43,639 bases of DNA from contig CALVPY010000020.1 in the NCBI GenBank assembly GCA_944354535.1, forward strand, positions 1-43,639, given 5' to 3'. Position numbers and translations under genes: made by a program. The stretch is from an uncultured Clostridia bacterium (GTDB taxonomy: Bacteria > Bacillota > Clostridia > Christensenellales > Borkfalkiaceae). The notes beneath the pieces are model-generated. The model worked only from the letters and a program-made list of their open reading frames with translations. It was not told the origin of the DNA and ran no database searches. Shown one piece after another: positions 28,725 through 32,334 of the stretch (position 1 is its first letter; every line of letters begins with the position of its first letter).

Positions 28725-28753
28725 TTGCTTTTTTGCCCCGATGCGGGTATAAT
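28725..28753 (+). promoter_or_regulatory. Promoter of cdaA
   Basis: TTGCTT at 28725-28730, 17 bp, and TATAAT at 28748-28753. The leader is about 26 nt with AAGGAG at 28775-28780 before ATG 28786. Confidence 0.75.
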
Positions 28754-28785: not shown

Positions 28786-29601
28786 ATGAACGCTTGGGAA
28801 TCGCTCAAGGAAATGTTCGCAGATACCGGGTCCATTCCGCTGTATCTTTTGGAATGGGTGCTGCTGTTTGTCCTCATTTATTACGTTTTCCGCATCCTGA
28901 AGGAAAATAACGCCAAGTACCTCATCATCGTGTACGCCGTGCTCATCGTCGCGGTGGGCATCGTCATGGTGCTTGCGCCCGGGCTCGATTCCAACGCTTA
29001 CGTCATCTACGTCATGCTCCTGTCGCTCTTCTTTCTGCTCCTTTTCAGCACGGAGATCAAGCGGCAGATCTGGGCGGGCAAGCGCGGCACCGCGGCGACC
29101 ACGATGGAATCCACATCTGCCGTCGGTTCGCGGGCGGAGGAGTATATCGGCGCCATCGTCAAAGCGGTGCAGAGCCTTTCCAAAGCCAACATCGGCGCGC
29201 TCATCGTGCTCTCCAACGGAAACCTTCCCAAAGAGATCATCGAAAGCGGCGTCTCTCTTGGCGCGAAGATCTCCAACCAGCTCATCGAGGGCATCTTTAT
29301 TCCCAAAGCGCCCCTGCACGACGGCGCCATGATCATCTACGGCGATAAGATCCAGGCGGCGGGCTGTTTCCTGCCGCTCACTCAGCGCGATTTCCCCAAA
29401 GATTACGGCACCCGTCACCGCGCCGCCATCGGCGTGACGGAAGCGGCGGATGTTTCCGCCATCGTCGTCTCGGAAGAGACGGGCATCGTCTCCGTCGTCA
29501 AGCGCGGCGAGATCACCCGCTATGTCGATTCGGAATCGCTCAAAAAGTTCCTGCGCGACTACTATTGGAAGGAATTCAACACGGAGGGCAAGCGCTCATG
29601 A
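28786..29601 (+). CDS. cdaA: Diadenylate cyclase CdaA
   Basis: Membrane-bound c-di-AMP synthase of 271 residues. Three hydrophobic helices occupy about residues 14-90 (LEWVLLFVLIYYVF, IVYAVLIVAVGIVMVLA, YVIYVMLLSLFFLLLF). The DisA_N catalytic domain follows with DGAMIIYGDKI (Asp-Gly-Ala, residues 179-181) and GTRHRAAIG (Arg-His-Arg, 210-212), both intact. c-di-AMP controls potassium and cell-wall homeostasis in Firmicutes. The stop overlaps a 35-codon gene that looks like the membrane helix of its usual partner CdaR. Confidence 0.95.
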   Translation: MNAWESLKEMFADTGSIPLYLLEWVLLFVLIYYVFRILKENNAKYLIIVYAVLIVAVGIVMVLAPGLDSNAYVIYVMLLSLFFLLLFSTEIKRQIWAGKRGTAATTMESTSAVGSRAEEYIGAIVKAVQSLSKANIGALIVLSNGNLPKEIIESGVSLGAKISNQLIEGIFIPKAPLHDGAMIIYGDKIQAAGCFLPLTQRDFPKDYGTRHRAAIGVTEAADVSAIVVSEETGIVSVVKRGEITRYVDSESLKKFLRDYYWKEFNTEGKRS

Positions 29602-29705
29602 CGTTCGGCAAATTTTTCAAAGATCTCTTCACCAAAAATATCGTGCTCAAGCTCATCGCGCTCGCTTTGAGCCTCGTCACGGTCATCATCGTCAACATCA
29701 TCTGA
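29598..29705 (+). CDS. 35-residue CdaR-like membrane micropeptide
   Basis: An ATG overlapping the cdaA stop (ATGA) opens a 35-residue frame: a short basic amphipathic start (MTFGKFFKDLFTKN) and one hydrophobic helix (IVLKLIALALSLVTVIIVNII), then TGA. This resembles the first 30-odd residues of CdaR/YbbR proteins, which begin with N-x-x-x-K-I-x-A-L and a single membrane anchor before several extracellular YbbR domains. CdaR binds and regulates CdaA and lies just downstream of it in most Firmicutes. Here all YbbR domains are absent, and the next gene starts 6 bp later. It may be a working minimal partner or a remnant. Confidence 0.6.
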   Translation: MTFGKFFKDLFTKNIVLKLIALALSLVTVIIVNII

Positions 29706-29711
29706 AAAAGT

Positions 29712-30872
29712 ATGAAGAATTGTTTCAGGATCCCGCGGGTGCTCCTGCCCCAAAAGGGATTCCGCAAATGGGCGGTCATCGCCTGCGATCAATTTACCTC
29801 CGACAGGGGGTATTGGGAGCGCGTCGCAAGGGAAGTGGGCGACGCGCCCTCTGCGTTTCATATGATCCTCCCCGAAGTGTATTTGGGTGAAAACGACGAG
29901 GAACGCATCGAAAATATCCACGAGAGCATGCGCTTCGCCCTCGAAGAGGGGTGGATGCATAAGGCGGCGCGCGGGCTGGTGCTCGTCGAGCGCACGACGA
30001 AGGCGGGCGTTCGTAAGGGGCTCCTCGTCTGCATCGACCTCGAAGAATATTTTTACGAAGAGGGCGCTTCCTCGCTCATCCGCGCGACGGAAGAGGTCGT
30101 TCCCTCCCGCCTTCCTCCCCGCGTGGCGATAAGAAGGGGAGCGCTCGTCGAATTTCCGCACGCGATGGTCTTCTACCGCGATAAGAAGGATAAGCTCATG
30201 CGTTCGCTGGAAGGGGAGGACCTCGAAAAGCTCTACGACTTCGATCTTATGGAGCACGGCGGGCATCTCACGGGCTATTTTATTCCCGAATATACGGCGA
30301 TCGACGTGCTGCACACGCTGTCGGGGCTCGCGAGCCCCTGCTTTGCGGTGGCGGACGGCAATCATTCGGTGGCTGCCGCCAAGGCGTATTGGGAGGAGAT
30401 CAAGGAAAAGCTCCCCGAGCGCGAGCGCCGCAACCATCCCGCCCGCTTTACGCTCGTCGAGATGGTCAACGTTTTCGACGAAGCCATCGCCTTCCATCCC
30501 ATCCACCGCCTCGTGAAGGAGACGGATGCCGAGGCGTTCTGTTCGTATTTTGCGGGCAAAGTGCCCTGCGCAAGGCGGGGAAGCACGCTTTTTCCCAAGA
30601 TCGCATCCGCGCCCGAGTGCGTCGCACGTACGGACGAGGCGATCGCGGAATATCTGAAACACAACGAAGGCAAAGTGGACTACATTCACGGCGACGAGTT
30701 TTTGAAGGATCCGGGCGAGGACTGCGCGGCGATCGCCATGCCCGAGCTCGACAGAGAAGAAATTTTTACGACCCTCAAGAAAGGGAAGCGGTTCCCGCGC
30801 AAGACGTTCTCCATCGGCGAGGCGGAAGATAAGCGCTACTACTTAGAGGGCAGGGAGATCAGCTATGATTAA
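29712..30872 (+). CDS. DUF1015 family protein
   Basis: A 386-residue DUF1015 protein, a family of unclear function often found near amino-acid or serine metabolism genes. Visible family segments are LLPQKGFRKWAVIACDQFTSD near the N terminus, HDxxLM-like DLMEHGGHLTGYFIPE, VADGNHSVAAAKAYWE and RFTLVEMVNVFDEAIAFHPIHRL. Length fits. No Shine-Dalgarno is seen before ATG 29712, so it is probably coupled to the preceding micropeptide. It overlaps the aspartate kinase start by 8 bp. No enzymatic role is claimed. Confidence 0.85.
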   Translation: MKNCFRIPRVLLPQKGFRKWAVIACDQFTSDRGYWERVAREVGDAPSAFHMILPEVYLGENDEERIENIHESMRFALEEGWMHKAARGLVLVERTTKAGVRKGLLVCIDLEEYFYEEGASSLIRATEEVVPSRLPPRVAIRRGALVEFPHAMVFYRDKKDKLMRSLEGEDLEKLYDFDLMEHGGHLTGYFIPEYTAIDVLHTLSGLASPCFAVADGNHSVAAAKAYWEEIKEKLPERERRNHPARFTLVEMVNVFDEAIAFHPIHRLVKETDAEAFCSYFAGKVPCARRGSTLFPKIASAPECVARTDEAIAEYLKHNEGKVDYIHGDEFLKDPGEDCAAIAMPELDREEIFTTLKKGKRFPRKTFSIGEAEDKRYYLEGREISYD

Positions 30873-32199
30873 GGTTTGCAAATTCGGCGGCACGTCCATG
30901 GCGGACGGCATGACCATGCGGCGCGTGAAGGACATCTTCGAGAGCGATCCCGAACGCAGATACATCGTCGTTTCGGCGCCCGGCAAGCGGTTCAGCGGCG
31001 ACATCAAGGTCACCGACCTTCTCTACGAGACGCAAAAAGAGGTGGAGGAGACGGGCAGCTGCGGCGAGGCGTTCGAAAAGATCTGCGCCCGTTTTTCGGG
31101 CATCGTGCAGGAGCTCAAGATCGATCTTGACATCGAGGGTATCCTGCAGGAGACGAAAAAGGCGATCGAAGAGGAAAAGTCTGCCGACTTTGCGGCGTCC
31201 CGCGGGGAGTACCTTTCGGGCCGCATCATGGCGGCGCTCCTCAATATCCCCTTCATCGACGCGCGCGACGTCATCAAGTTCGACGCTTCGGGCAAGCTGG
31301 AAAGCGCCCGCTCCTTCGAACTCCTTGCACGCGCTCTTTCGGGCAAGCCGAAGGCGCTCGTCACGGGCTTTTACGGCGAGGGCGCGGACGGAAAGGTCAA
31401 GACGTTCTCCCGCGGCGGGTCGGATATCTCGGGCGCCATCGTCGCACGTGCGGCGGGGGCAGCTCTTTACGAGAACTGGACGGACGTGAGCGGCTTCCTT
31501 GCATGCGATCCCCGCATCGTCGAAAACCCCGTGCCCATCCGCTCGCTCTCCTATAAGGAGCTGCGCGAGCTTTCCTACATGGGCGCGAACGTGCTCCACA
31601 GTGAGTCTATCTTCCCCGTGCGCGAGGCGGATATCCCCATCCGCATCAAGAACACCTTCCGTCCCGAAGACGAGGGCACGCTCATCATGCCCACGTCCAA
31701 GTACCGCTTTTCGGGCAGGACGGTCACGGGCGTGGCGGGCAAGAAGAATTTTACCGTCATCTTCGTGGAAAAGTCGCTCATGAACCTCGAGATCGGCTTT
31801 GCCAGAAAAGTTCTGACCGTGCTTGAAAACCACGGCGTCTCCTTCGAACATATCCCGACGGGCATCGACACCATGTCCTTCATCATCGACGGGGCGCACC
31901 TTGAAAGCGGCGTTTTGGAGCAGATCATCGCCGAGATCAAGGAGGCGGTGCATCCCGATCAGATGCGCGTCTTCGACCGAATCTCCCTCATCGCGGTCGT
32001 CGGCCACGGCATGAGCCGCAACGTCGGTACTTCGGCGCGTGTCTTTTCCGCCATCGCGGGGGCAGGCGTCAACGTGCGCATGATCGACCAGGGCTCTTCC
32101 GAGCTCAACATCATCGTCGGTGTCGACGACGAGAACTACGAGCGCACCCTTCGCGCCGTCTACGAAGAATTCTTCACGGGCGCGGAGGAGATCAACTAA
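30865..32199 (+). CDS. lysC: Aspartate kinase
   Basis: A 444-residue aspartokinase, first step of lysine, threonine and methionine synthesis. KFGGTSMADG at the N terminus binds ATP; FSRGGSDISGA and VSGFLACDPRIV are catalytic-lobe signatures. Two C-terminal ACT domains follow from about residue 305 (FTVIFVEKSLMN, ISLIAVVGHGMSRNVG, NVRMIDQGSSELNI), suggesting feedback control by an end-product amino acid. It is a single-function enzyme with no homoserine dehydrogenase part. It is the last gene of the cdaA transcription unit, closed by hairpins at 32206 and 32303. Confidence 0.93.
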   Translation: MIKVCKFGGTSMADGMTMRRVKDIFESDPERRYIVVSAPGKRFSGDIKVTDLLYETQKEVEETGSCGEAFEKICARFSGIVQELKIDLDIEGILQETKKAIEEEKSADFAASRGEYLSGRIMAALLNIPFIDARDVIKFDASGKLESARSFELLARALSGKPKALVTGFYGEGADGKVKTFSRGGSDISGAIVARAAGAALYENWTDVSGFLACDPRIVENPVPIRSLSYKELRELSYMGANVLHSESIFPVREADIPIRIKNTFRPEDEGTLIMPTSKYRFSGRTVTGVAGKKNFTVIFVEKSLMNLEIGFARKVLTVLENHGVSFEHIPTGIDTMSFIIDGAHLESGVLEQIIAEIKEAVHPDQMRVFDRISLIAVVGHGMSRNVGTSARVFSAIAGAGVNVRMIDQGSSELNIIVGVDDENYERTLRAVYEEFFTGAEEIN

Positions 32200-32262: not shown

Positions 32263-32302
32263 TGCATCAACTCTTCGCGGCAAGGATAATATGAAGGATG
32301 AG

Positions 32303-32334
32303 CGGGCGGCAATTTGCCGCCCGTTTTCGTTTTA
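32303..32334 (+). terminator. Terminator of the cdaA-lysC unit
   Basis: A perfect 9-bp stem (32303-32311 with 32315-32323, loop ATT) of pure GC character is followed by TTTTCGTTTTA. This is a clear intrinsic terminator about 100 bp after lysC. Confidence 0.8.

Follow-up and report, generated by a model that had tools for sequence, protein, structure and literature searches.

Genes and Features of the cdaA Locus

The window, i.e., the whole stretch of 43,639 nucleotides analysed from an uncultured Clostridia bacterium, contained a gene of a membrane diadenylate cyclase, CdaA, followed by a frame of 35 codons. The features of this region were as follows.

28725..28753, plus strand: candidate promoter of the cdaA operon, TTGCTT-17 bases-TATAAT, recognized by eye, with TATAAT at 28748-28753
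28786..29601, plus strand: cdaA, membrane diadenylate cyclase (Pfam DAC, 4.3e-39)
29583..29587, plus strand: GGAGG, the likely Shine-Dalgarno sequence of the helix-only gene, within the last cdaA codons and 10 bases 5' of the ATG
29598..29705, plus strand: helix-only CdaR ("mini-CdaR") of 35 amino acids, assigned by conservation, profile searches, dN/dS and residue pattern
29712..30872, plus strand: gene of the DUF1015 family (PF06245, 1.6e-55), 6 bases (29706-29711) after the helix-only gene
30865..32199, plus strand: aspartate kinase gene, the last of the run (NF006540, 7.1e-154)
32300..32326, plus strand: terminator-like hairpin of 12 pairs, found by a scan, which may close the operon

The CdaA protein retained the LHDGAM and RHR motifs and consisted of three membrane helices, predicted from hydropathy, and the DAC domain. 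Its score against TIGR00159 was 176.4 bits (6.2e-52), below the cut-off of 188.8. Since cdaA ended at 29601 and the helix-only frame started at 29598, the bases ATGA were common to both. The translation of 29598-29705 gave MTFGKFFKDLFTKNIVLKLIALALSLVTVIIVNII and then a stop after 35 codons. The peptide had a basic amphipathic N-terminal part, the residues F11, N14 and K18, and a single membrane helix with A21-x3-S25. The original prediction of a 35-codon frame that overlaps the cdaA stop by ATGA, with the next gene 6 bp on, was thereby confirmed by translation and coordinates.

The cdaA, helix-only, DUF1015 and aspartate kinase genes probably form one operon. The candidate promoter was absent from the output of a promoter scan, and its first hexamer matched in three of six positions. 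The canonical order cdaA-cdaR-glmM was not observed, as DUF1015 and aspartate kinase genes, not glmM, lay downstream. A loss of GlmM by the whole lineage was considered and dropped: the window genome (G000, 92.8% complete) gave no match over the curated cut-off, nor did G021 and G024, yet 22 of the 25 genomes of the genus were positive. In many genomes the DUF1015 gene stood behind cdaA in the place of glmM, and this applied to many carriers of the helix gene as well as to many genomes lacking it.

Conservation of the 35-Codon Gene

The 35-codon frame of the window is a genuine gene. The genus sample comprised all 25 genomes with cdaA, the window genome included, and every locus was read. A frame of the same kind, 35 to 40 codons long, was found behind cdaA in 24 of the 25 genomes, far above chance, and the overlap of 4 bases with the cdaA stop (ATGA or GTGA) was found in 23. 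In L006 the frame was located 78 bases downstream of cdaA. In L008 (genome G016) near-identical repeats directly followed the cdaA stop at the expected place of the helix-only gene; since this contig stopped ~530 bases behind cdaA, a displaced copy may exist. Beyond the genus, 112 unique helix-only genes were obtained out of 209 cdaA loci (duplicates included) by a filter of length and hydrophobicity, which was corrected by hand for L096 (falsely helix-only) and for L092 and L120 (falsely full-length). The frame was thus conserved in relatives, as the original prediction had considered possible.

The dN/dS ratio was estimated for 25 unique 35-codon genes with F11 and K18, some of them from other genera; because the set was chosen for these two residues, both columns were fixed by the selection of sequences. 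The median ratio was 0.39 over 115 of 300 non-independent pairs, the other 185 being outside the usable dS range, and values above 1 were recorded for two of the 115. Two control frames across the same DNA gave 0.86 and 1.60. The Ka/Ks check suggested along with the prediction was therefore favorable, and the gene is, by this measure, under purifying selection.

Of the 112 unique helix-only genes, 102 were preceded by a Shine-Dalgarno-like 5-mer, which occurred at 6.8% of 5600 random sites within cdaA; GGAGG or AGGAG preceded 83 of these genes, compared with 1.9% of the random sites. The CdaA tail hosting this site read A-E-G, S-G-G, R-G-G or W-R-K. The retention of the site while the reading of the tail differed suggests that it is the DNA site, and not the CdaA tail, that is selected. 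Scans of the 35-residue peptide against Pfam and NCBIfam returned no family, and 45 relatives gave only scattered weak matches, one or two members each, with a best E-value of 0.0011. The helix-only CdaR thus adds a family of small proteins that is matched in neither collection.

Homology to the N-Terminus of CdaR

The helix-only gene takes the place of cdaR directly downstream of cdaA. The 35-residue protein gave no YbbR match in Pfam and lacked the CdaR/YbbR domain. A six-frame search found the YbbR domain (PF07949) in none of the 25 genomes of the genus, the window genome (92.8% complete) included. Such a search crosses stops and frames, so a YbbR part behind a frameshift would have appeared, and the DUF1015 gene followed at once. 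Hence, neither of the two circumstances that would have undone the prediction, a complete cdaR elsewhere in the genome or a frameshift hiding YbbR, was encountered.

The homology of the N-terminal membrane helix was investigated by profile searches, carried out blind in samples of 296 and 393 genomes, and by residue pattern. The profile A2 was made of 45 hand-picked helix-only proteins, the most divergent being left out and no full-length CdaR being inside. The targets were the whole genomes of 296 members of the order, in which all other frames served as the control. A2 matched 39 of the 92 YbbR-positive genomes, at one place in each genome and in frames of 294-501 amino acids, with best E-values against full-length CdaRs of 2.2e-9 to 1.4e-8; the remaining 53 gave no match at E ≤ 0.01. 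A YbbR domain followed the A2 match within ~0.9 kb on the same contig in at least 35 of the 39 genomes, the other four being G061, G113, G214 and G221. Six genomes showed off-target matches only (G064, G101, G106, G144, G201 and G253; E 4.9e-4 to 0.01), and three further genomes showed one extra off-target match each in the same range of E-values.

A2 was also searched in a sample of 393 genomes from the class, where, at E ≤ 0.001, it matched 22 that did not belong to the order. Twenty of these loci were read, and cdaA was present in 16 of them. The best local A2 match was the start of the long gene directly behind cdaA in 13 of the 16, and was located elsewhere in L224, L230 and L233. L236 held an apparent CdaR start at the contig edge and no cdaA, and the matches of L226, L231 and L238 did not adjoin cdaA.

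The residue pattern was counted in 107 of the 112 helix-only proteins, five without an anchor being left out, and in 39 full-length CdaRs, all aligned on the basic residue (K) before the helix. Positions K+3 and K+7 were both occupied by small residues in 85 of the 107 helix-only proteins and in 29 of the 39 full-length CdaRs; for no other pair of positions four apart did the counts exceed 17 and 6, respectively. N, H or D at K-4 was shared as well (helix-only, 79 of 107; full-length, 25 of 39). W was present at K+11 in 25 of the 39 full-length and 16 of the 107 helix-only proteins.

Based on these comparisons of sequences, the helix-only protein is a descendant of the CdaR N-terminus. The central claim of the original prediction, a CdaR reduced to a single membrane helix, was supported by both the blind whole-genome searches and the shared residues, and the comparison with CdaR N-termini upheld homology, the K-x2-small-x3-small pattern being common to both. 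Due to the missing YbbR domain, the protein, although derived from CdaR, is not a CdaR in the Pfam sense.

Distribution in the Order

Among the 296 genomes of the order, CdaA was found in 266, YbbR in 92, and the helix-only or fused form, as detected by A2, in 63. A2 overlooked some helix-only genes that were visible by eye (G032, G205 and G275). YbbR and the helix-only or fused form occurred together in none of the 296 genomes. YbbR was distributed over thirteen families and the helix-only form over six (seven with f9), and no family had both.

A tree was constructed from 113 of 176 usable CdaA proteins, after removal of similar ones and of the loci from L249 on (except one). The states were set partly by hand, and L095 with its 136-residue frame was counted as full-length. 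Except for the Bacteroidota, every row with a helix-only or fused form or without a helix was placed in one clade of 75 (SH-aLRT 100), against 33 rows with full-length CdaR. At a minimum, a single change on this tree explained YbbR and two explained the helix, whatever its form, five being needed when the four states were distinguished; the yes/no counts excluded the Bacteroidota rows. The quick tree, which was made without bootstrap, did not give the direction of change; full-length CdaR in other Bacillota points to a loss of YbbR.

Neither YbbR nor the helix was found behind cdaA in 22 loci of eight families (f3, f6, f8, f10, f14, f16, f23 and f28) and in L137 of one f1 genus. The same held for L097 (Christensenella sp. 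UBA3217), where the DUF1015 gene directly followed cdaA and neither a full-length nor a helix-only CdaR was present. It follows from these relatives that CdaA can do without the helix, which is not needed everywhere. The helix-less rows of f3, f6, f8 and others, including the Christensenella sp., formed one group on the tree and L137 stood alone, which would indicate a secondary loss of the helix in these rows.

No CdaA was detected by the CdaA profile in family f26 (e.g., G050, G073, G092 and G107), the genomes of which were 0.8-1.3 Mb and 98-100% complete among the genomes listed. These genomes may be without c-di-AMP synthesis of the CdaA type.

Fusion of the Helix to CdaA

In one nested clade the helix was located in frame at the N-terminus of CdaA. 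Seven distinct proteins of this kind scored 35-51 bits with A2, and their carriers were genus g75 of family f30 (G134, G146, G244 and G297) together with L079, L080 and L085. The fused N-terminus read NAF, then MKAIFV-D, K-L-A, IW and VGLG. It was followed by a linker of ~20-33 residues (as judged by hydropathy), the three CdaA helices and the DAC domain with LHDGA and RHR. A free helix gene was not found behind cdaA in the six fusion loci that were read downstream (L079-L082, L085 and L162), where the DUF1015 gene stood instead, and the four g75 genomes gave no second A2 match.

The AlphaFold model of the L081 fusion (64 aligned rows) contained a helix at 13-22, a helix at 26-45 and the CdaA helices, with a mean pLDDT of 85.3 and a pTM of 0.67. 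An N-in/C-out CdaR helix ahead of a three-helix CdaA with an inside catalytic end is topologically consistent. The proposal that the helix is an assembly partner of CdaA gained support from this in-frame fusion in a sister clade. It also suggests that what counts in CdaR is this helix.

Predicted Topology and Search for an Interface

The mean number of K and R residues was 5.2 before and 0.09 after the start of the helix, and all 107 proteins pointed in the same direction, which was partly forced by the anchor rule. An N-in, C-out topology of the helix-only protein is predicted, and it fits the joint with the CdaA N-terminus in the fusion.

The face of the helix was examined by a conservation moment, which was not significant for the helix-only proteins (368 and 1784 of 5000 permutations reached its value); for the full-length CdaRs the value was reached by 2979 and 2652 of 5000. 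Covariation of the helix with CdaA in 91 pairs showed no enrichment in the membrane part (9 of the top 25 versus 9.2 expected), with a maximum of 0.205 versus 0.134 over 30 shuffles that were blind to relatedness. Solved structures were searched with CdaA and GlmM as well as with the helix profile and one full-length CdaR. No CdaR-CdaA structure emerged, and the last two queries also gave no full-length CdaR chain.

Comparison with Known Systems

The literature considered here comprised passages of PMC6368335, PMC13289029, PMC8573169, PMC8316131, PMC12422730, PMC11520302 and PMC6108528. CdaR/YbbR was described in a complex with CdaA and GlmM, and its contact was mapped by two-hybrid experiments to the membrane region of CdaA (PMC6368335, PMC8573169, PMC8316131). 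The mode of action of CdaR on CdaA was called unclear (PMC8573169), and its effects on c-di-AMP were reported both ways (PMC8573169, PMC12422730, PMC11520302). YbbR was said to be required for the output of DacA in Chlamydia (PMC12422730), a ybbR insertion raised c-di-AMP in S. aureus (PMC11520302), and an earlier S. aureus study recorded no conclusive evidence for a regulation of DacA by YbbR (PMC6368335). Neither a helix-only CdaR nor a CdaR-CdaA fusion was described in the titles, beginnings of abstracts and text passages that the literature search covered.

The helix-only protein resembles CdaR/YbbR of Bacillus, Listeria and Staphylococcus in its gene place directly behind cdaA, its basic start, predicted to be cytoplasmic, and one N-terminal membrane helix, in the K-x2-[AS]-x3-[AG] pattern of that helix and in the homology found by profile search. 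It differs by the lack of YbbR: in 104 of 107 proteins the chain ended 16-24 residues past the basic residue used as the anchor. GlmM is likewise a protein partner of CdaA (complex in PDB 9g69, 7ojs and 7olh), but it binds the cytoplasmic domain of CdaA, as stated in PMC6368335 and PMC8573169.

The helix-only CdaR, one short helix tied to a larger membrane protein, may also be compared with other small proteins. CydX, KdpF and AcrZ are small single-helix subunits that come from the operon of, or are made for, a larger membrane protein. In contrast to them, the helix-only CdaR can be traced to a larger regulator. We know of no small helix subunit, or single-helix control, of a cyclic-dinucleotide synthase.

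Proposed Role of the Helix

The data as a whole are best explained by a CdaR that was cut to a membrane subunit packing against CdaA, and we consider this explanation likely. The gene would encode CdaR trimmed to its cytoplasmic basic N-terminus and single membrane helix, oriented N-in, C-out. The helix would be translated in step with CdaA, probably by translational coupling, and would pack, as a separate protein, on the three-helix membrane domain of the cyclase. Packing would most likely involve the face on which the N and the K lie together with the small residues three and seven positions after the K. As a subunit that stays permanently with the cyclase in the membrane, the helix would determine how CdaA is assembled, how stable it is or how it is arranged when active, and in this way it could regulate CdaA and affect the output of c-di-AMP. 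As there is no extracellular YbbR domain, it could not sense the outside as a full CdaR might. In the simplest reading, the helix would be the contact part of CdaR; the clade would have shed the extracellular portion and retained the helix as a small subunit, which one branch would have fixed by fusion. The helix-only protein probably works like the membrane part of CdaR.

The most serious alternative, which we regard as possible though rather unlikely, was that the helix assists only in the insertion, folding or persistence of CdaA and plays no role in setting its activity. The overlap of its start with the cdaA stop, the lack of a sensory domain, the basic N-terminus with one helix, and the place of the helix ahead of CdaA in the fusion would all suit such an assembly factor. 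Against it may be set the effects of the full CdaR/YbbR on c-di-AMP, which were reported in both directions in PMC8573169, PMC12422730 and PMC11520302.

The helix could also be a decaying relic of CdaR that was no longer needed after the loss of YbbR. A precedent is cdaR of a Lactococcus lactis strain, which was called a non-functional pseudogene in PMC6108528 and in which, similarly, CdaR function was lost or reduced; the absence of the helix behind cdaA in the eight sampled families, L137 and L008 would agree with decay. The helix-only gene, unlike that pseudogene, is short, intact, retained across several families after one change on the tree, and under purifying selection. So long a retention can hardly be that of a mere relic, and the dN/dS well below 1, the kept Shine-Dalgarno site and the gene fusion also make this explanation very unlikely.

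It is scarcely probable that the frame is a leader through which ribosomes pass on from cdaA to DUF1015, the peptide itself being idle. Such coupling would account for the frame's stop overlapping or touching the DUF1015 start in many relatives of the genus; in its favor, too, cdaA is often directly followed by DUF1015 in loci that lack the helix. Coupling would leave unexplained the conservation and purifying selection at the protein level, the similarity to CdaR N-termini, the fusion to CdaA, and the loci in which an aspartate kinase gene was the next frame seen in place of DUF1015 (L053, L055, L056 and L133). Finally, the replacement of CdaR by an unrelated small membrane protein in the same place is extremely unlikely, since, despite the weak statistics of short hydrophobic sequences, the lack of a Pfam or NCBIfam family for the peptide and the scattered matches of its relatives, the whole-genome A2 searches with other frames as the control recovered CdaR N-termini with E-values down to 2.2e-9, and both the K-x2-small-x3-small pattern and the gene place are common to the two.

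The explanation of the helix as a membrane subunit packing against CdaA can be extended to CdaR in general, and we give this extension about an even chance of being correct. In every CdaR, the membrane helix would then be the functional core, and gut Clostridia that form a large clade would run CdaA with the helix alone, either separate or as a fourth CdaA helix. If so, the clade's managing with the helix alone would make the extracellular YbbR domains a discardable accessory sensor. The clade offers a natural experiment in which every YbbR domain is gone and the helix is kept across families and fused in one clade, showing the part of CdaR worth keeping. The helix-only gene also provides a partner of 35 residues suited to direct tests.

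Extended Variants of the Helix-Only Protein

A longer form was observed in L167 (genome G270, family f30), where positions 1590-1973 of the minus strand encoded a helix-only CdaR of 128 amino acids with a cytoplasmic start made of YPKTGGYPKT-like repeats. A shorter extension of the same type was present in the 75-residue protein of L173. It was considered that such repeats might serve in binding or might be modified.
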